The notes under the pieces are model-generated. The model did not search any database, was not told the origin of the DNA, and saw nothing but the letters and a program-made list of their open reading frames with translations. A DNA stretch of 64,000 bases from Pseudomonas mendocina (GTDB lineage Bacteria > Pseudomonadota > Gammaproteobacteria > Pseudomonadales > Pseudomonadaceae), in NCBI RefSeq assembly GCF_003008615.1, contig NZ_CP027657.1, positions 3,906,001 to 3,970,000 on the forward strand. The letters are read 5' to 3'. Shown in pieces: positions 55,659 to 64,000 of this stretch. Made by a program: the position numbers and the translations under genes. Within the stretch, counting starts at the first letter, position 1. Each line of letters starts with the position of its first letter.

Positions 55659-57410
55659 ATGAGTCAATTCGCAATCAACATCCTCTTCGTGGGGGCGTCG
55701 TTCGCGCTCTACATCGGCATCGCGCTCTGGGCACGAGCCGGCTCCACCAAGGAGTTCTACGTCGCCGGTGGCGGCGTAGGCCCCATTCCTAATGGCATGG
55801 CGACCGCTGCCGACTGGATGTCGGCGGCTTCCTTCATTTCCATGGCGGGGCTGATTTCCGTCGGTTACGTCAACTCGTCCTTCCTGATGGGCTGGACCGG
55901 TGGCTATGTGCTGCTGGCCATGCTGCTGGCGCCCTACTTGCGCAAGTTCGGCAAGTTCACCGTGCCGGATTTCGTGGGGGATCGCTTCTACAGCAAAGGT
56001 GCACGTCTCACCGCCGTCATCGCGCTGCTGCTCACCTCGATCACCTACGTGATCGGCCAGATGAGCGGTGCCGGTGTGGCGTTCGCGCGCTTTCTGGAAG
56101 TCAGCAACTCCACCGGTATCTGGATCGCTTCGGCGGTGGTCTTCATCTACGCGGTCATCGGTGGCATGAAGGGCATCACTTACACCCAGGTGGCCCAGTA
56201 CGTCGTGCTCATCGTCGCCTACACCATTCCGGCGGTGTTCATCTCGCTGCAATTGACCGGCAACCCGTTGCCGCAACTGGGCATGTTCGGCACCCATACC
56301 GAATCCGGTATGCCGCTGCTGAGCAAGCTCAATGAGGTGGTGCGTGAGCTGGGCTTCCAGGACTACACCGCGGATGTTTCCAACAAGTTCAACATGGTGC
56401 TGTTCACGCTGTCGCTGATGATCGGTACGGCTGGTTTGCCGCACGTGATCATTCGCTTCTTCACCGTACCGAAGGTTTCCGATGCACGTTCGTCCGCTGG
56501 CTGGGCGCTGGTGTTCATCGCCCTGCTGTACACCACTGCACCGGCGGTCGCGTCCATGGCGCGTCTGAACCTGATCACCACCGTTTACCCCAATGGTGTG
56601 GAGCAGCCGTCGCTGGAGTACGCCGAGCGTCCGGAGTGGGTGAAGAACTGGGAAAACACCGGCCTGATCAAGTTCGAGGACAAGAACAACGATGGCCGTA
56701 TCCAGATGTACAACCCAACTGCCGACTTTGCTGAGCGTGGCTGGGCCGGTAACGAGCTGGAAGTGAACTCCGACATTCTGGTTCTGGCCAACCCGGAAAT
56801 CGCCAACCTGCCAGGTTGGGTGATTGGTCTGATCGCGGCGGGCGCCATCGCGGCGGCGTTGTCCACGGCGGCGGGGCTGTTGCTGGCGATCTCCTCGGCG
56901 GTCAGTCATGACCTGATCAAGACGATCATCAATCCGAAAATCAGTGAAAAGTCGGAAATGCTCGCGGCACGTATCTCCATGGCCGTGGCGATTCTGGTGG
57001 CGACCTACCTTGGACTCAATCCACCAGGCTTCGCCGCGCAGGTGGTGGCGCTGGCCTTCGGTATTGCCGCGTCGTCGATCTTCCCGGTGTTGATGATGGG
57101 GATTTTCTCCAAGCGTATTAACAGCGCTGGCGCGGTTTCGGGTATGGTTGCCGGCCTGTTGTTCACGGTGGTGTATATCTTCATCTACCTGGGCTGGTTC
57201 TTCATTCCGGGCACCAATACCCTGCCGAACACGCCTGACAACTGGCTGCTGGGTATCTCCCCGCTGTCCATCGGTAGCGTGGGTGCGCTGATCAACTTCG
57301 CGGTGGCTTTCGCAGTTTCCCGCGTAACCGCACCACCACCTCAGGAAGTTCAGGATCTGGTGGAAAGCGTCCGTTATCCGAAGGGTGCTGGCGGTGCCAT
57401 CAGCCACTGA
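55659..57410 (+). CDS. sodium:solute symporter large subunit (VC_2705 type)
   Basis: A 583-residue symporter with 12-13 predicted helices. Family blocks are FYVAGGGVGPIPNGMATAADWMSAASFISMAGLI and LLLAISSAVSHDLIKTI. A loop of about 80 residues (295-375, with KFEDKNNDGRIQMYN) carries an acidic, EF-hand-like DKNNDG segment. These pairs often carry acetate, pyruvate or similar small acids, but the substrate is inferred from relatives only. It forms an operon with the DUF4212 gene. Confidence 0.88.
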   Translation: MSQFAINILFVGASFALYIGIALWARAGSTKEFYVAGGGVGPIPNGMATAADWMSAASFISMAGLISVGYVNSSFLMGWTGGYVLLAMLLAPYLRKFGKFTVPDFVGDRFYSKGARLTAVIALLLTSITYVIGQMSGAGVAFARFLEVSNSTGIWIASAVVFIYAVIGGMKGITYTQVAQYVVLIVAYTIPAVFISLQLTGNPLPQLGMFGTHTESGMPLLSKLNEVVRELGFQDYTADVSNKFNMVLFTLSLMIGTAGLPHVIIRFFTVPKVSDARSSAGWALVFIALLYTTAPAVASMARLNLITTVYPNGVEQPSLEYAERPEWVKNWENTGLIKFEDKNNDGRIQMYNPTADFAERGWAGNELEVNSDILVLANPEIANLPGWVIGLIAAGAIAAALSTAAGLLLAISSAVSHDLIKTIINPKISEKSEMLAARISMAVAILVATYLGLNPPGFAAQVVALAFGIAASSIFPVLMMGIFSKRINSAGAVSGMVAGLLFTVVYIFIYLGWFFIPGTNTLPNTPDNWLLGISPLSIGSVGALINFAVAFAVSRVTAPPPQEVQDLVESVRYPKGAGGAISH

Positions 57411-57507: not shown

Positions 57508-58002
57508 ATGATCTGGCACTTGGTTGCATTGGTGTTCGCCGGCCTTGGGGCCGCGAGTATTGGTTTCCTGCTGCGCTCGTTGAGCGGAAAGAAATTGCCA
57601 GGGTGGATCGTTCCTGCTTTCGCTGGTTTGGGAATGCTGGGCTATCAGATCTACTACGAATACTCCTGGGCCGAGCACAAGCAGAGTCAGCTGCCCGCAG
57701 GCTCGGCGGTCGTCGAATATGAGCGCGAGCAGCAGATTCTGCGACCCTGGACTTATCTGATGCCGATGACCGTGGGTTTCAGCGTGGTGGATACCGCTAA
57801 TATCCAGAGCGCTGAGCAGGATGGGCAACGCATCAAGCAGTTCATCCTCTATCGCTTCGAGAAGGAGTATGTGGATCGGCTCACCCACCAGACCTATCTG
57901 CTCAACTGTGACAGTGCGGAGATGGTGTCGGTCAGCGAGAACAACCCGCGTCTGCGTCAGCTCGAGCGTAGCGATGAGCTGTACCGCGTCGTTTGCCTAT
58001 AA
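57508..58002 (+). CDS. membrane protein of unknown function
   Basis: A 164-residue protein with two N-terminal membrane helices (LVALVFAGLGAASIGFLLRSL and WIVPAFAGLGMLGYQIYYEYSW) and a C-terminal soluble domain with two cysteines (LLNCDSAEMVS and VVCL). The start is at ATG 57508, just after the symporter terminator. Nothing in the sequence suggests a reaction. It ends at a bidirectional terminator. Confidence 0.7.
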   Translation: MIWHLVALVFAGLGAASIGFLLRSLSGKKLPGWIVPAFAGLGMLGYQIYYEYSWAEHKQSQLPAGSAVVEYEREQQILRPWTYLMPMTVGFSVVDTANIQSAEQDGQRIKQFILYRFEKEYVDRLTHQTYLLNCDSAEMVSVSENNPRLRQLERSDELYRVVCL

Positions 58003-58074: not shown

Positions 58075-58728
58075 CTAGCGCCACGTGAGGATCGGCCAGC
58101 CCGCTTGTTCGGCATGTGCGCGCAGGGTCGGATCCGGATTGACGGTGAAGGGGTTGTCCACCACCTGCAGCAACGGCAGGTCGTTGCGTGAGTCGGAGTA
58201 GAAGCAGGAGCCGGCGAGCGTCTCGTTCTGTTCGATCATCCAGCTTTCCAGGCGGATCACCTTGCCTTCGCGATAGGTCAGCACGCCTTCGGTGCGCCCC
58301 GTATAGAAGCCGTGCTGTTGCTCCAGGTCGATGGCCAATACCTCGTCGATACCGAAGCGCTCGGCAATCGCGCTGACCAGGAAATGCGCCGAAGCCGAGA
58401 TCACCAACAGGCGGTCGCCTGCGGCGCGGTGCGCGGCCAGGGCGCGGCTGGCATCGCTGTAGAGAACCGGTTCGATCACATCCTCGACGAAGGGCTCGAC
58501 CACGTGGGCGACCTCCTCGGGCGTGCGGCCGACCAGCGGCGACAGGGTGAAGGTCATGTAGTCCTCCATGGCCAGCGTGCCGGCTGCATACTGGCGCATC
58601 AGCTCCTGCTCATGGGCGAGGAAGGACTCGCCGTCGGCCCAGCCGAGCTTGACCATTTCCTGCGACCACAGGGTGGAGCAATCGCCATGGATCAGGGTGT
58701 CGTCGAGATCGAAAATCGCCAGGGCCAT
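58075..58728 (-). CDS. HAD-IB family phosphatase
   Basis: A 217-residue phosphatase of the SerB-like HAD-IB group. Motif I is DLDDTLIHGD (both aspartates), motif II ISAS, motif III lysine in REGKVIRL, and motif IV YSDSRNDLPLL. Its start overlaps the transporter ATPase stop by one base (TAATG), so it is the last gene of the six-gene operon. Within that context it probably dephosphorylates a product of the imported compound; serine phosphate is only one possibility. Confidence 0.87.
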   Translation of the reverse strand: MALAIFDLDDTLIHGDCSTLWSQEMVKLGWADGESFLAHEQELMRQYAAGTLAMEDYMTFTLSPLVGRTPEEVAHVVEPFVEDVIEPVLYSDASRALAAHRAAGDRLLVISASAHFLVSAIAERFGIDEVLAIDLEQQHGFYTGRTEGVLTYREGKVIRLESWMIEQNETLAGSCFYSDSRNDLPLLQVVDNPFTVNPDPTLRAHAEQAGWPILTWR

Positions 58729-59714
58729 TACGCCACCTCCCGGATTGCATCGGCGCCAATCGCCAGGCTGACGCTCTGGCCTTCTCGGTGCAGGTCAGCG
58801 GCGCAGCGATTGAGCACGTCCACCAGCAGTTCCACGCCTCGGGCCTCGACCCGGTAGCGCACGACGTTTCCCAGCAGGCTGTGGCTGAGAATGGTGCCTT
58901 CGATACCGAGGCCGCCAATCTGGATGGCTTCCGGGCGAATCGCCACGCTGCTGCTCACCGGGCGCAGCAGCAGGCGGCTGGCGGCATCGGCATCGAGCAG
59001 GTTGTAGTTGCCGATGAAGCCGGCGGCGAAGGCATCGGCCGGTGCGGTGTACAGCGTTTCGGCGTCGCCGCTCTGGACGATCTGGCCGTCGTTCATCAGC
59101 ACGATGCGGTCGGACAGCACCAGCGCCTCTTCCTGATCGTGGGTGACGAAGATGGTGGTCAGACCCAGCTCGCGCTGGATGGCGCGAATCTGTTCACGCA
59201 GGTGCTTGCGGATGCGCGCATCCAGTGCCGACAGCGGCTCGTCGAGCAGCAGCAAGCGTGGACGGGTGACCAGCGAGCGAGCCAGGGCCACGCGCTGGCA
59301 CTGGCCACCGGAGAGCTGGTGCGGGTAGCGTCCGGCGTAGTCGTTCAGCTCCACCAGTTCCAGCGCTTCGGCGACGCGCTGATTGGCTTCGGCCGTCGGT
59401 ACTTTCTGCATGCGCAGGCCGAAGGCGACGTTCTGCGCCACGGTCATGTTGGGGAACAGCGCATAGCTCTGGAACACCATGCCGATGCCGCGCTTCTGTG
59501 GCGGCATGGGCACCAGATCCTGGCCATCGAGCAGGATCTGCCCGCCATCGACCGCCGTCAGGCCGGCGATGCAGCGCAGCAGGGTGGACTTGCCGCAGCC
59601 GGACGGGCCGAGCAGGGTGATGAACTGACCCTGGCCGATCTCGATATTGATGTCGGTGAAGACCCGCGTCGGGCCGTAGCTTTTATGCAGGTTGTGGATA
59701 TGCAGAAAACTCAT
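58728..59714 (-). CDS. ABC transporter ATP-binding protein (spermidine/iron/phosphonate type)
   Basis: A 328-residue ATPase: Walker A GPSGCGKST, Q-loop MVFQSYALFP, signature LSGGQCQRVALARS (cysteine at the usually variable position), Walker B LLLLDEPLSALD, H-loop VTHDQEEAL. A C-terminal TOBE domain from about residue 235 places it with PotA/FbpC-like importers. It overlaps the HAD gene downstream and the permease gene upstream (ATGA), so the genes are translationally coupled. Confidence 0.9.
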   Translation of the reverse strand: MSFLHIHNLHKSYGPTRVFTDINIEIGQGQFITLLGPSGCGKSTLLRCIAGLTAVDGGQILLDGQDLVPMPPQKRGIGMVFQSYALFPNMTVAQNVAFGLRMQKVPTAEANQRVAEALELVELNDYAGRYPHQLSGGQCQRVALARSLVTRPRLLLLDEPLSALDARIRKHLREQIRAIQRELGLTTIFVTHDQEEALVLSDRIVLMNDGQIVQSGDAETLYTAPADAFAAGFIGNYNLLDADAASRLLLRPVSSSVAIRPEAIQIGGLGIEGTILSHSLLGNVVRYRVEARGVELLVDVLNRCAADLHREGQSVSLAIGADAIREVA

Positions 59715-60505
59715 GATTTGTCCTTGTTCAGACGATTGGCTGCCCAGGTCATCAGCAGCACGAACATGAAGTAGGAGATCACCAGGGCGCTGGTGAAATG
59801 GCCGCTGTCGTTACGCATGTTGTACAGGTACACCTGCAGCGTCTCGTAGCGGCTGCCCACCAGCAGGTTGGCGAAGACGAATTCGCCGAACAGGAAGCTG
59901 AAGGACAGGAACACCGAAACCATCAAACCCTTGCGCAGGTTCGGCAGCACCACCATGAAGGCCACGCGCCAGGTGCTGGCACCCAGCAGGTGAGCGGCGT
60001 CCATCAGGTCGCGCAGGTTGATCGCCTGCAGGTTGTTGGTGATGGCGCGGTACATGAAGGGCAGGGCGATGGTGAAGTAGCAGCCGATCAGTATCCATGG
60101 CGTACCGAGAATCGGCAGTGGGCCCGCCGCGAACAGCTGCATCAGGCCCACCGAAGACACCACCGGCGGAATGGCGAACGGCAGCAGGATCAGCACATTC
60201 ATCACGCCGTCGAGCTTGGGGAAGTGGTAGTTGACCACGAACAGCAGCGGCAGGATCAGCAGCAGCGCCAGTGCCAGGGCGCCAAAGCAGACCAGCAGTG
60301 AGCGGCCGAAGGCGGCGAGAAAGCGTGCATCGCTCCACAGCGCCACGTACCACTTGAAGGTGAAGCCGCTGGGCAGGATGGTTGCCGACCAACTGGTGGA
60401 CAGCGAGTACACCAGGGTGCCGAGCAGCGGCAGCAGCAGGATCAGAAACAGTAGGTAGACCACCAGTTGGTGGAACAGCGGCGAGCGTTTTTCAGCGGGC
60501 GACAT
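59711..60505 (-). CDS. ABC transporter permease (second)
   Basis: A 264-residue inner-membrane permease with about six helices and the EAA-like loop NLRDLMDAAHLLGASTWRVAFMVVLPNLRKG, of the PotC type. It overlaps the neighbouring genes at both ends (four bases with the ATPase, 14 with the first permease). Confidence 0.88.
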   Translation of the reverse strand: MSPAEKRSPLFHQLVVYLLFLILLLPLLGTLVYSLSTSWSATILPSGFTFKWYVALWSDARFLAAFGRSLLVCFGALALALLLILPLLFVVNYHFPKLDGVMNVLILLPFAIPPVVSSVGLMQLFAAGPLPILGTPWILIGCYFTIALPFMYRAITNNLQAINLRDLMDAAHLLGASTWRVAFMVVLPNLRKGLMVSVFLSFSFLFGEFVFANLLVGSRYETLQVYLYNMRNDSGHFTSALVISYFMFVLLMTWAANRLNKDKS

Positions 60506-61334
60506 GGTAGCTCCGGCGCAGCAGCCATTGGTGGACGATGGTGATCAGAGTCATCAGGCCAACCAGCACCATGGCCAGTGCGCTGGCCATGTTCGGATCG
60601 AGGAAGATGTCGCCGGAAACCATCGCCGCGATACGGATCGGCAGGATGTTGAAGTTGCCGGTGGTCAGCGCGTACACCGTGGCGTAGGCGCCCAGGGCGT
60701 TGGCCAGCAGGATGACGAAGGTGCCGAGCAGTGCCGGGGTCAGCACCGGCAGGCCGATGTGCCGCCAGAACTGCCAGTTGCTGGCACCGAGCAACTCGGC
60801 CGACTCGCGCCAGTCTTCACGCAGGGCGTCGAAGGCCGGGTAGAGCAGCAGCACGCCGAGCGGAATCTGGAAGTAGGTGTAGAGCACGATCAGGCCGGTC
60901 TTGGAGTAGAGGTTGAAGTCCTCGATCACGCCCATCTGCTTGAGCAGGATGGTCAGTGCGCCGTTGAAGCCGAGCAGGATGATGAAGGCGAAGGCCAGCG
61001 GTACACCGGAGAAGTTGCTGGTCATGTTGGAAAAAGCCATGACGAAGTCGCGCAGACGGCTGCTGACCTGTCGCAGCGAGTAGCTGCCGATGATGGCGAT
61101 GACGATGCCGAACAGGCTCGACCAGAAGGCGATCTCCAGGCTGTGGCGCATGGCCTGGCGGTAGAACGGCGAGGAGAAGGCCTGCTGGAAATTGCCCAGC
61201 CCCCAGCCTTGTGGCGTATTCAAGCTATTGCTCGCCACCCAGGCCAGTGGCGCGATCTGGAAGGCGATGAAGAACAGGGCAAAGGGCACCAGGCACAGCA
61301 GTGCCCAACCCTTGCTGGAAATCGACGACTTCAT
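60492..61334 (-). CDS. ABC transporter permease (first)
   Basis: A 280-residue inner-membrane permease with about six helices. Its EAA-like loop is LREDWRESAELLGASNWQFWRHIGLPVL. ATG 61334 (MKSSISSKGWALLCLVPFALFF) overlaps the phosphodiesterase stop (ATGA); a longer frame exists but would invade that gene. Partner of the second permease. Confidence 0.88.
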   Translation of the reverse strand: MKSSISSKGWALLCLVPFALFFIAFQIAPLAWVASNSLNTPQGWGLGNFQQAFSSPFYRQAMRHSLEIAFWSSLFGIVIAIIGSYSLRQVSSRLRDFVMAFSNMTSNFSGVPLAFAFIILLGFNGALTILLKQMGVIEDFNLYSKTGLIVLYTYFQIPLGVLLLYPAFDALREDWRESAELLGASNWQFWRHIGLPVLTPALLGTFVILLANALGAYATVYALTTGNFNILPIRIAAMVSGDIFLDPNMASALAMVLVGLMTLITIVHQWLLRRSYHVAR

Positions 61335-62137
61335 GCGAGTAGCTCCCTGCACCAGGGTTTGTCGTGGGCGACGCCGAGCAACTGGCAGATGGTGCCGCAC
61401 AACTCTGTCTGTTGCAGGCGGGCTGCCGGGTCGAGGCTGAAGGCGCTGCCGAGGACGATCAGCGGCACTTCGCGCTCTTCCGGCAGCACGCCGTTGTGGC
61501 TGCGGTCGTTGTTCATGCCGTGGTCGGCGGTCACCAGGATCTGGTAACCAGCGTCGAGCCAGGTCTGGATGTATTCGGCCAACAGCACGTCGGCCATGCG
61601 CGCAGCGTTGCGGTATTGCGGGCTGTCGAGGCCGTGCTTGTGCCCGGCATCGTCGATGTTCATCGGGTGCACCAGCAGCAGGTTGGGCTGATGGCGCTGA
61701 CGCAGGCTGTCGGCATCGGCGAACAGGTGCGAGTCCGGGTAGTGGTCGGCGTAATAGAAGTGGCCGTGCTGGATCGGTAGCGACTCATCGCTGGTATGGC
61801 GGTCACGGGTTGCCTGGAACGGCGCGCGGTTGTACAGCTCGCTGACCCAGTGATAGGCCGCAGCGGCGGTAGTCAGGCCGGTGTCGCGGGCGTAGTGGAA
61901 GACGCTGCGCTGGTTCGACAGGCGCACCACATCGTTGTGCACGATACCGCTGTCGATAGGCGCGACACCGGTGAGGATGCACTCATAGAGCGGGCGGGAC
62001 AGCGCGGGCAGCGCGCAGTCGAGCTTGTACAGCGCGGCGCGTCCGGCCTGGCAGTGAGCCAGCAGGTGGCCCAGCGCATGCTGGGCCACCTGATAACTCA
62101 GGCCATCCAGCACCACCAGGATGACGTTGTGCTTCAT
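61331..62137 (-). CDS. alkaline-phosphatase-superfamily phosphodiesterase/nucleotide pyrophosphatase-like enzyme
   Basis: A 268-residue metalloenzyme. The first metal aspartate is D11 (VVLDGLSYQ). The expected nucleophile is Ser47 in SRPLYECILTGVAPIDSGIVHN, aligned with the Thr of NPP enzymes and of phosphonoacetate hydrolase. Further metal ligands lie in HPMNIDDAGHKHG and TADHGMNND. There is no signal peptide, so it should act in the cytoplasm after import. It sits between the binding-protein and permease genes. The exact substrate (phosphodiester, phosphonate or pyrophosphate) cannot be read from sequence. Confidence 0.8.
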   Translation of the reverse strand: MKHNVILVVLDGLSYQVAQHALGHLLAHCQAGRAALYKLDCALPALSRPLYECILTGVAPIDSGIVHNDVVRLSNQRSVFHYARDTGLTTAAAAYHWVSELYNRAPFQATRDRHTSDESLPIQHGHFYYADHYPDSHLFADADSLRQRHQPNLLLVHPMNIDDAGHKHGLDSPQYRNAARMADVLLAEYIQTWLDAGYQILVTADHGMNNDRSHNGVLPEEREVPLIVLGSAFSLDPAARLQQTELCGTICQLLGVAHDKPWCRELLA

Positions 62138-62163
62138 CGGTTGCTCTCGTTCGGTCGTAGCTC

Positions 62164-62223
62164 GTAACCCGGATGCAATCCGGGGGCGTACTTGGCGATT
62201 GCCCCGGATTGCATCCGGGCTAC
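62164..62223. repeat. REPIN-type palindrome inside the operon
   Basis: CCCGGATGCAATCCGGGG (62168-62185) and its inverse CCCCGGATTGCATCCGGG (62202-62219) are exact partners over 18 bases, flanked by GTA at the left and TAC at the right. It lies in the only wide gap of the operon, just after the binding-protein gene. Such hairpins can protect the upstream mRNA and lower downstream expression, the ratio wanted for binding protein over permease. Confidence 0.85.
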
Positions 62224-62246
62224 GGATCAATGGCGGCGCGACGGCA

Positions 62247-63305
62247 TCAATTCATGTTGATGATTACGTGCTCCTGCCACAGGCGTGGCAGCATCTTGGA
62301 GGTGTTCTCCCAGGCCGCGGCGTCCTTGATCGGCTGCACCTTGGCGTATTGCTCCTGCGGCAGCAGCTTGGCCTGTACCTCGGCCGGCAGGTCGATGTGT
62401 TCGGCGCGGATTGGACGGGCGTTGCCCTTGGCCAGGTTGATCTGCCCGGCATCGCTGAGGATGTACTCGCGGGTCAGCTTGGCGGCGTTGGGATTCTTCG
62501 CCCACTTGTTGATGATGGTGCTGTAGCCGGAGATCACCGAACCGTCGGAGGGGATCAGCACCTCGAAGCGCTCGGGGTCGATCTGGGCGCGGTAGGACAG
62601 GCCGTTGAAGTCCCAGACAATGCCGACTTCCACTTCACCCTTTTCCAGCGTCTGGATGGTCGGGTTGGCCAGCGACAGGCGTCGCTGCTTGGCCAGCTCA
62701 CCGTAGAAATCCAGCGCCGGCTGCACGTTGCTCTCGTTGCCGCCCATGGCGATGGCGGCAGCCAGTACGCCGTTCACGGCTTGTGCCGCGGTGCTCACGT
62801 CACCGGCGGAAACCTTGTAGGTGCCGGTCTTGAGGTCGGCCCAGGAGCGCGGAATGTCCTTGACCAGCTGCTTGTTGACGATGAAGGCAATGGAGCCGGT
62901 GTAGGCCAGCATCCAGTGGCCGTCCTTGTCCTTGGCCCAGTCCGGAATCTGCTCCCAGGTGCTCGGCTTGTACGGCTGGGTCACGCCCTGCTGCACGGCG
63001 ATGGGGCCGAAGGCGGCGCCGACGTCACCGATATCGGCGGTGGCATTGTCCTTCTCGGCGGCGAACTTGGCGATTTCCTGTGCCGAGCTCATGTCGGTGT
63101 CCTGGTGCTTGAGGCCGTAGAGTTTGCTCAGGTCGGCCCAGGTGTCTTTCCAGTTGGCCCAGCTGTCGGGCATACCCACGCTGTTCACCGCGCCTTCTGC
63201 GCGTGCGGCCTGTTCCAGTGCCTGCAAGTCAGTGCTTTCGGCCATGGCGGAAGTCGCCAGAGCGATGGCCGAGCCCATCAGTGAAGCCAGCAGCAGTTGT
63301 TTCAT
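62247..63305 (-). CDS. ABC transporter periplasmic substrate-binding protein
   Basis: A 352-residue secreted binding protein: signal peptide of about 22 residues (LASLMGSAIALATSAMA), then a PotD/FbpA-like fold (VNSVGMPDSWANWKDTWADL, ADIGDVGAAFGPIAVQQG, GIVWDFNGLSYRAQ, SGYSTIINKWAKNPNAAK). First gene of the operon, downstream of a Pho-box-type promoter. The ligand is unknown; the neighbouring enzymes suggest a phosphorus compound. GGAGTTTCCG precedes the ATG. Confidence 0.88.
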   Translation of the reverse strand: MKQLLLASLMGSAIALATSAMAESTDLQALEQAARAEGAVNSVGMPDSWANWKDTWADLSKLYGLKHQDTDMSSAQEIAKFAAEKDNATADIGDVGAAFGPIAVQQGVTQPYKPSTWEQIPDWAKDKDGHWMLAYTGSIAFIVNKQLVKDIPRSWADLKTGTYKVSAGDVSTAAQAVNGVLAAAIAMGGNESNVQPALDFYGELAKQRRLSLANPTIQTLEKGEVEVGIVWDFNGLSYRAQIDPERFEVLIPSDGSVISGYSTIINKWAKNPNAAKLTREYILSDAGQINLAKGNARPIRAEHIDLPAEVQAKLLPQEQYAKVQPIKDAAAWENTSKMLPRLWQEHVIINMN

Positions 63306-63331
63306 CGGAAACTCCTTTGCAGTGAGAGTGT

Positions 63332-63343
63332 TGGTCTAGATCA
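63332..63343. promoter_or_regulatory. candidate GntR-family operator, operon side
   Basis: TGGTCTAGATCA is a palindrome with one mismatch, of the TGGTnTAnACCA type bound by HutC/UTRA regulators such as PhnF. It lies 27 bases before the binding-protein gene, just after its expected transcription start. Confidence 0.45.
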
Positions 63344-63357
63344 GCAATGTCCGCGCC

Positions 63358-63391
63358 AATCTAGGTGCCTTCGATGACAGTTTCATGTCCA
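63358..63391 (-). promoter_or_regulatory. Pho-box-type promoter of the transporter operon
   Basis: On the minus strand, TGGACAT-GAAA-CTGTCAT (63391-63374) resembles a PhoB box (two 7-base repeats, 4-base spacer); the second repeat is perfect. Ten bases further on, TAGATT (63363-63358) can be the -10. In PhoB-activated promoters the box takes the place of the -35, as here. Confidence 0.5.
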
Positions 63392-63518
63392 GCCATGGGA
63401 TGTAGATGTCCAGGTGCAGTCAGCTGGCGCGCTCATCAAGCGTAGACCATGGGTAAGTGGCTGATTTCCCGGGCAGTGAGTCCATATGGCGATGGCATGC
63501 AGCGTGCTTGCAGCAGGG

Positions 63519-63552
63519 TTGTCATCTATCAGTCATCTAGACTGCCTAGGCT
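63519..63552 (+). promoter_or_regulatory. Pho-box-type promoter of the GntR gene
   Basis: TTGTCAT-CTAT-CAGTCAT (63519-63536) matches the Pho-box pattern with one mismatch in each 7-base half and an A/T-rich spacer. TAGGCT, ten bases downstream at 63547-63552, is a weak -10. Confidence 0.5.
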
Positions 63553-63594
63553 CGTAACCCATCCGAGCGAGTGACTTTTGCCCTGTGTTGGGGC

Positions 63595-63606
63595 TGGACT
63601 AGTCCA
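63595..63606. promoter_or_regulatory. candidate GntR-family operator, regulator side
   Basis: TGGACTAGTCCA is a perfect 12-base palindrome 15 bases upstream of the GntR start codon, similar in form to the operator at 63332-63343. It would suit autoregulation. Confidence 0.45.
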
Positions 63607-63621
63607 AAAGGGGAAATATTG

Positions 63622-64000
63622 ATGCGCGAAGAAGCGCCGCGGGCCGTCACCCTCATTTGTCGCGCCTTGCAGGAGCAGATCGACCGGGGCCTATTGCCCG
63701 CTGGCAGCAAGTTGCCGGCCGAGCGCAAGCTCAGCGAGCTGTTCGACACCACGCGTATTACCCTGCGCGAGGCGCTTGGCCAGTTGGAGGCGCAGGGGCT
63801 GGTCTACCGCGAGGAGCGCCGCGGCTGGTTCGTCTCGCCGGCGCGGGTGGCGTACAACCCCCTGGTGCGCACGCACTTCCATGCCATGGTCGCCGAGCAG
63901 GGACGTGTGCCTGCCACAGAGGTCCTGAGTGCGCGGCTGATGCCGGCCAGCGCACAGATCTGCCAGGTACTGGAGCTGCCGGCGTTATCCAGCGTTTATC
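63622..64000 (+). CDS. GntR-family (UTRA) transcriptional regulator, 3' part outside window
   Basis: The first 126 residues are present. The N-terminal winged HTH (PAGSKLPAERKLSELFDTTRITLREALGQLEAQGLVYREERRGWFV) is the GntR signature. After about residue 75, YNPLVRTHFHAMVAEQGRVPATEVL starts a UTRA-type effector domain as in HutC and PhnR/PhnF. AGGGG lies nine bases before the ATG. It is divergent from the transporter operon, which it probably controls. Confidence 0.85.
   Translation, partial: MREEAPRAVTLICRALQEQIDRGLLPAGSKLPAERKLSELFDTTRITLREALGQLEAQGLVYREERRGWFVSPARVAYNPLVRTHFHAMVAEQGRVPATEVLSARLMPASAQICQVLELPALSSVY

Follow-up and report, generated by a model that had tools for sequence, protein, structure and literature searches.

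Gene content and layout of the locus

A stretch of 64,000 nucleotides from the genome of Pseudomonas mendocina (assembly GCF_003008615.1, contig NZ_CP027657.1, positions 3,906,001 to 3,970,000 of the forward strand) carries at its end a candidate operon for the use of an organophosphorus compound. We refer to this stretch as the window and count positions from its first letter. A sequence-only reading had described here six leftward genes and a divergent GntR gene of the UTRA type, and all of them are present. The first gene on the minus strand encodes a periplasmic binding protein (SBP; 352 amino acids (aa), 62247..63305) with a signal peptide recognizable by eye and matches to PF13343 (1.1e-27) and to chain 5t1p_A (5e-147), which shares 100% identity with a Campylobacter coli gene over 326 residues. 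It is followed by a phosphodiesterase (PDE) of the NPP type (268 aa, 61331..62137, ATG at 62137) from the alkaline-phosphatase superfamily, a permease (280 aa, 60492..61334, PF00528 3.6e-13), a PhnV-like permease (264 aa, 59711..60505, PF00528 4.5e-15), a PhnT2/PotA-like ATP-binding cassette (ABC) ATPase (328 aa, 58728..59714, PF00005 2.3e-38) and, as the final gene, a HAD-IB phosphatase (217 aa, 58075..58728) with the motif I DLDDT (D7, D9). The PhnR-like GntR/UTRA regulator (238 aa, 63622..64338, PF00392) lies on the plus strand and is truncated where the window stops, at 64000; its end was read from the surrounding genome. Overlapping or near-touching gene ends had also been noted: of the five junctions, four show overlaps (1, 4, 14 and 4 bp), and the fifth is a gap of 109 bp between the SBP and PDE genes (62138..62246, minus strand). 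A REP-like doublet fills this gap and folds into a ~24-bp hairpin (minimum free energy −54.3 kcal/mol, z −5.5). The doublet has 151 genome-wide matches with at most two mismatches, compared with 0 for the reversed control, and the hairpin may set the ratio of the binding protein to the other products.

For the regulator and most parts of the transporter the highest scores come from models of 2-aminoethylphosphonate (2AEP) systems, all of these scores lying below the equivalog cut-offs of NCBIfam. The ATPase reaches 375.5 on its top model TIGR03265 PhnT2 (cut-off 457.7) and the 264-aa permease 92 on TIGR03255 PhnV (cut-off 358.7); for the 280-aa permease the top model is TIGR01581 (67.6) and the next a 2AEP permease model (63.7), both below cut-off. 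The cut-offs of PhnS (51.8 against 395.3), PhnT (319.5 against 499.15) and PhnU (50.5 and 26.1 against 283.45) were missed as well. The complete GntR protein narrowly misses the PhnR model TIGR03337 (288.6 against 296.75), and the cut protein gives 23.5 bits on UTRA, just below the cut-off of 23.8. The SBP also matches 4r72-4r75, which are labelled iron-type and which we take to be hexose phosphate binders. As had been remarked, phnW, phnX and C-P lyase genes are absent from the genes of the locus.

The predicted phosphodiesterase and phosphatase

The PDE passes the gathering score of PF01663 (70.9 against 23 bits); at E 0.001 only PF01663, Metalloenzyme and PglZ match, and a GDPD-type match was not obtained. 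D11 and Ser47 lie at the positions given by the sequence-only reading, and S47 is invariant across 39 aligned sequences (that of the window included). D11 is aligned too, with several distant rows beginning past it. The PDE keeps the NPP metal ligands, the nucleophile and an asparagine 21 residues after it (S47, N68, D162, H166, D205, H206 and H214), residues that presumably serve as metal ligands, nucleophile and phosphate-binding Asn. Among proteins of solved structure PhnA counts as one of the nearest relatives (5.6e-11), yet the NPPs give the better match in sequence as well as in fold. Judged by these comparisons the PDE groups with the NPPs and not with phosphonoacetate hydrolase, and the PhnA-like reading that had been offered was rejected, as the equivalog model TIGR02335 gives 19.3 bits against a cut-off of 407.55. 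The enzyme is cytosolic as judged from its sequence, in which no signal peptide was seen by eye.

The HAD protein resembles the phosphoserine-phosphatase type. On the histidinol-phosphatase model HolPasePseu NF052360 it scores 235.2, below the cut-off of 280, whereas a separate HAD protein of the same genome reaches 358.3. Histidinol-phosphatase was rejected as its identity on these scores, by which it is a paralogue of that enzyme.

Distribution and conservation

Of 149 Pseudomonas genomes, 143 have a match to the PDE. For the class the figure is 19 of 274 at a loose E of 0.001, and for the phylum 43 of 398 at 1e-8. The window's own genome is counted each time, and the phylum sample holds other members of the genus as well. 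A neighbourhood search across Pseudomonas had been proposed as a check: the order PDE-permease-permease-ATPase-HAD is complete in 14 of 14 fetched loci, one of which (L070) begins its contig at the PDE and so lacks SBP and GntR. A further scan of named genomes, with the binding protein of Campylobacter as query, gave 589 confirmed loci, of which we used the best 80, a set of biased make-up (the 80-locus set). It comprises Campylobacter and related metagenome-assembled genomes (MAGs), two Pasteurellaceae genera, Pelistega (Alcaligenaceae), many loci that we take to be Enterobacterales, and Pseudomonas. A PDE above 80 bits is present in 77 of these loci (in L152 in two frames) and a divergent GntR above 80 bits in 68; L147 has only PDE and GntR remnants, and L151 and L157 lack a PDE match. 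The HAD protein has 34 matches, 33 directly after the ATPase and one elsewhere (L157), and none in the listed Pantoea and Serratia loci. Conservation of the block across the span from Pseudomonas to Campylobacter shows that the gene set is not a chance assembly. Distances of PDE, SBP and GntR correlate at 0.88–0.90 over 90 loci, a value from which species relatedness was not removed and which is expected for co-inherited genes.

Several loci depart from the usual arrangement. In Serratia marcescens (L151:9854-16772) the transporter stands without PDE, HAD or GntR match. Genes for an Orn/Arg-type decarboxylase and a GntP permease come after it, and a LysR gene lies upstream; this copy is perhaps a re-used transporter. 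Edaphovirga cremea (L147:9532-11239) keeps the PDE and GntR remnants beside an intact-looking transporter, and in P. oryzihabitans KNF2016 the PDE is split in two frames (L152:10965-11782). A PDE with 67% identity (L100:4484-7319) has no transporter or HAD match and adjoins a Na/Pi cotransporter with a PhoU domain. In 44 of the best 80 of 589 loci a similar cotransporter follows on the same strand, no more than 0.8 kb downstream, at a position resembling what we take to be the metH/yjbB site of Enterobacterales. Since a shared position of this kind possibly explains the co-occurrence, we did not count it as evidence. In another locus (L106:581-8320) a PDE-HAD pair is tied to an ABC transporter of the SBP_bac_5 type instead of the usual one. 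PDEs of ~31–35% identity (L053, L056, L110-L113) also lie near other ABC ATPases, the SBP_bac_5 gene being confirmed only in L110 and L112. For the orphan PDEs L052, L107, L108 and L109, those neighbours that were scanned (not all were) gave no substrate clue. A phytase-like protein with a signal-peptide-like start is encoded in the Campylobacter-type operons of L120 (10995-12320, PF13449), L121 and L122, in the first two between SBP and PDE, and a single Campylobacteraceae MAG has a patatin-like phospholipase gene upstream of the operon (L123:8723-9577). In the window itself, the operon is preceded in coordinates by a 583-aa open reading frame (ORF; 55659-57410) and a rightward 164-aa ORF (57508-58002), the latter with zero Pfam or NCBIfam matches at E 0.001. 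An Rfam scan of the window gave three tRNAs and nothing else.

A conserved promoter

The region between the operon and GntR holds two Pho-box-like repeats, one facing each side, the best of which was reached by 0 of 200 base shuffles; the Pho-box consensus used for scoring is the one we presume to be standard. The operon promoter carries a Pho box (63374..63391, minus strand, 11 of 14 positions), a putative −10 element TAGATT (63358..63363, minus strand, assigned by eye inside a conserved 60-bp promoter block) and the operator-like palindrome TGGTCTAGATCA (63332..63343, plus strand), with one mismatch to the consensus TGGNCTAGNCCA. These elements are spaced as Pho box, 10 bp, conserved TAGATT, 14 bp and operator, and the box lies 48 bp upstream of the operator. 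Towards GntR we found a second Pho box (63519..63536, plus strand, 12 of 14 positions) and the exact palindrome TGGACTAGTCCA (63595..63606, plus strand); the Pseudomonas loci L058-L069 and L071 have such a palindrome close to GntR as well.

In order to follow this arrangement we compared 93 intergenic regions, namely the window and 92 others with a GntR and an SBP match separated by 50–600 bp (other loci were excluded, L147 with its GntR remnant was included). All 93 have an operator of at least 8/10 no further than 100 bp from the SBP start, but the consensus was derived from the same loci and this count is not independent. The spacing of 48 bp is an independent test: the Pho score at exactly this distance upstream of the operon-side operator averages 9.84/14, compared with 3.51 (sd 0.84) at the other offsets from 20 to 109, with secondary peaks at 37 and 59 that fit an 11-bp repeat. 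Many of the regions are closely related (71 distinct 60-mers); the 56 distinct Pho boxes average 9.43. A score of at least 8 at −48 was obtained in 86 of the 93 regions (genus including the window 14/14, other genomes 6/10, members of the 80-locus set 66/69). The box is missing there in L102, L103, L104, L118, L143, L194 and L198; by eye it is shifted by one base in L194 and L198, and L143 has one 53 bp upstream. The placement of TAGATT and operator after the Pho box fits a PhoB-activated promoter that is blocked by a repressor. The conserved promoter thus predicts activation by PhoB together with derepression by substrate, and the PhnR-like GntR protein would be the repressor.

The apparent counterpart in Pseudomonas putida BIRD-1

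In P. putida BIRD-1 the aepSTU locus, described as an auxiliary 2AEP transporter, comprises GntR, SBP (pfam13343), three genes and an ATPase. The same order is found here, with the PF13343 SBP beside the GntR gene and the ATPase four genes on. The locus therefore seems to correspond to PPUBIRD1_3890-3895, a match drawn from gene order, Pfam domains and the presence of the PDE in most genomes of the genus. PPUBIRD1_3890 (GntR) and PPUBIRD1_3895 (ATPase) are up at low phosphate under PhoBR (PMC5082522). The phosphate-starvation control that had been proposed is supported by this and by the conserved boxes at fixed spacing. PPUBIRD1_3891 was renamed AepS and detected under all growth conditions, and phosphorus can no longer be obtained from 2AEP by a triple mutant that lacks aepXVW, aepP and aepSTU, although the single aepSTU mutant is normal (PMC8316502). 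The minor role of AepSTU in 2AEP use has been restated (PMC9311074). If BIRD-1 carries an orthologue, others have shown there both PhoBR-dependent levels of GntR and ATPase and uptake of 2AEP.

The earlier reading, which could assign the pairing of PDE and HAD enzyme to no named pathway, has to be corrected in part. The locus is not wholly unassigned, as its transporter corresponds to AepSTU by order and Pfam (PMC8316502); for the PDE and the HAD protein it stands, as we found no paper in the open-licence literature that assigns a function to either, and the word ‘phosphodiesterase’ is nowhere in the main text of PMC8316502. In the same literature nothing was found for PA3249-PA3255 or PP_1721-PP_1727, and the PA325x tags are absent from the main texts of PMC9769906 and PMC9864684. 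The transport half of the system thus seems to be labelled already, while no description of the catabolic half or of the promoter logic was met in the open-licence literature. The tags PA3249-PA3255 and PP_1721-PP_1727 are those we take to denote this locus in other strains.

Proposed function and alternatives

We propose, as the somewhat better than even explanation of the gene set, a self-contained operon that would import and cleave a small organophosphate diester when phosphate is scarce. The genes, their conserved order, the catalytic residues and the promoter layout are read directly from the DNA; the diester substrate, its identity, the order of the two enzyme steps and the action of the repressor we infer. 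The binding protein and the ABC transporter would carry the intact compound into the cytosol, the two-metal PDE with its nucleophile Ser47 would split the diester into an alcohol and a phosphomonoester, and the HAD-IB phosphatase would then release phosphate from the latter. PhoB would switch the promoter on, and the PhnR-like repressor, bound just downstream of the −10 element, would be lifted by substrate or product, so that low phosphate and substrate together form an AND gate. Uptake of 2AEP by AepSTU would be a side activity. The logic of import, hydrolysis and removal of the last phosphate suggested before is matched by the pairing of an NPP-type PDE with a phosphoserine-phosphatase-like HAD protein.

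The substrate can be narrowed down to some extent. PhnX occurs in 101 of the 149 genus genomes (in 100 above cut-off) and PhnJ in 40; among the 143 PDE-positive genomes 22 lack both and 23 have PhnJ only, PhnA, PalA and PbfA not having been searched. The window's own genome has PhnJ ~335 kb away and gave no PhnX match in a whole-genome search. With 22 PDE-bearing genomes devoid of PhnX and PhnJ, import of 2AEP is unlikely to be the main job, and the operon is independent of these two routes. Moreover, phnWX is essential for 2AEP use in BIRD-1 (PMC8316502), so PDE and HAD protein draw no usable phosphorus from 2AEP. The 2AEP-like regulator and most transporter parts suggest an aminoethyl group; we take a small phosphodiester bearing one as the likeliest cargo, at well under even chances, with glycerophosphoethanolamine as the leading guess. 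We tentatively extend this, as a rather doubtful generalization, to a near-universal Pseudomonas pathway common to Enterobacterales, Pasteurellaceae and Campylobacter, in which aminoethyl diesters would be imported whole for the NPP-type PDE and then the HAD enzyme, with a regulator that senses the aminoethyl compound and forms the AND gate with PhoB.

A number of observations weigh against the proposed import-and-cleave operon. PPUBIRD1_3891 (binding protein, ‘PhnD3’) is up at low phosphate yet listed as unaffected by PhoBR (PMC5082522), and AepSTU synthesis is called phosphate-independent (PMC8316502); both sit badly with a PhoB-dependent promoter, though ATPase and GntR are PhoBR-dependent. 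Over the whole window Pho-box patterns (at most three mismatches) number 7 against 4.51 expected and operators 3 against 1.45, which is no excess, and the case for these elements rests on their place and conservation. In the best 80 of 589 loci, 47 have no HAD match in the operon position, which means that some loci do not encode the final step at this place. In three (L147, L151 and L157) the SBP, permeases and ATPase are retained but a full-length PDE is not, which indicates that the transporter can persist without it. Chains of the PDE fold include monoesterases and sulfatases, and the preference for diesters rests on family resemblance. Scanned neighbours give no pointer to ethanolamine. 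Wild-type BIRD-1 grows on phosphocholine and glycerol 3-phosphate but fails to grow on 100 μM glycerophosphocholine as sole phosphorus source (PMC5438359, which also names ugpBAECQ of E. coli). The closest head-group relative is hence not used, at least without inducer; we rejected glycerophosphocholine as cargo, with the caveat that it may not induce the operon and that the BIRD-1 genes are orthologous only by deduction.

The same mechanism might serve another cargo, such as glycerophosphoglycerol, glycerophosphoserine, glycerophosphoinositol, sugar-phosphate diesters or nucleotide derivatives. The NPP fold is used on nucleotides and on head groups alike, the SBP matches 4r72-4r75, and the phytase-like and patatin-like genes of the Campylobacter operon and locus L123 would agree with it; on the other side stand the likeness of the regulator and of most transporter parts to 2AEP systems and the ability of AepSTU, provided that it is the same system, to move 2AEP (PMC8316502). 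This variant lies inside the proposed mechanism, its likelihood overlaps with that of the latter, and we rate it as possible at well under even chances. A different view takes the locus as the 2AEP importer AepSTU only, with cargo passed to PhnWX or C-P lyase elsewhere and enzymes that are incidental or act on other phosphonates. It is unlikely: the BIRD-1 triple mutant, the best scores on 2AEP models, the PhnJ in the window's own genome and the three loci with a transporter but no full PDE speak for it, but the single deletion has no phenotype, no 2AEP equivalog cut-off is reached, 22 PDE-positive genomes lack both PhnX and PhnJ, and the enzymes accompany the transporter as far as Campylobacter.

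That the PDE hydrolyses the C-P bond of an unrecognised phosphonate in the manner of phosphonoacetate hydrolase, with the HAD protein performing a separate monoester step, we consider improbable. PhnA is a close solved relative and TIGR02335 matches weakly, but far below its cut-off, and NPPs match better; a following phosphatase would be needless, and deletion of phnWX abolishes 2AEP use (PMC8316502). For PhnA, moreover, the use of two lysines has been proposed (PMC10574752). Very improbable, finally, is a transporter for ferric ion or polyamines beside unrelated enzymes. Several proteins matched by the SBP_bac_6 protein carry annotations as iron or polyamine binders, but iron or polyamine uptake was rejected on the conserved Pho boxes and the phosphate regulation published for BIRD-1 and C. 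jejuni (PMC5082522, PMC1892558), and phosphatase-type enzymes stand within the same gene row.

New in this analysis are the conserved promoter of Pho box and operator, the PhnX/PhnJ pattern in the 143 genomes, the placement of the PDE with the NPPs and the HAD protein as a histidinol-phosphatase paralogue. The PDE is nearly ubiquitous in a large soil and clinical genus, and the catabolic half of the operon has no assigned role in the open-licence literature. If phospholipid-type diesters are indeed taken up intact, the operon would provide a private route beside the secreted GlpQ route, with no phosphate lost to neighbours, and surveys that take aepS as a marker of 2AEP use would count something else. 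The fixed promoter makes the regulation directly testable.

Comparison with known systems

The PDE shares its catalytic core and residues with Xac NPP and ENPP6/ENPP7; it differs from Xac NPP in its length (268 aa, with Xac chains of ~380), in a Ser in place of the Thr nucleophile and in the signal peptide, which was not seen by eye. Salmonella phnRSTUV is the comparison system for 2AEP. Here a PhnR-like regulator and PhnS/T/V-like transporter parts are present, but all below equivalog cut-offs, and phnWX is not in the locus. The E. coli ugpBAECQ system is a Pho-controlled ABC importer of glycerophosphodiester with UgpQ as GDPD cytosolic phosphodiesterase. Pho-controlled ABC import followed by cytosolic cleavage is common to both, but the PDE here belongs to the NPP/alkaline-phosphatase superfamily, is unrelated to UgpQ and comes with a HAD phosphatase and a GntR regulator.

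The block extends to relatives as distant as Campylobacter, where the order SBP, PDE, two permeases, ATPase and HAD recurs in L120 and L121 (35–67% identity) among seven genes beside a CorA gene. In contrast to the Pseudomonas operon, the phytase-like gene is inserted between SBP and PDE, GntR is not adjacent, and a Pho box of the enteric type was not found in the two loci. The block fits Cj0727-Cj0733 of Campylobacter jejuni, tags that we assigned by gene count and presume to be correct. Cj0728-Cj0734 are called phosphate-regulated (PMC1892558, citing Woesten 2006), and cj0727-cj0732 are given ‘no currently assigned function’ (PMC7176700). The block described here appears to be this unexplained phosphate-regulated operon of C. 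jejuni.

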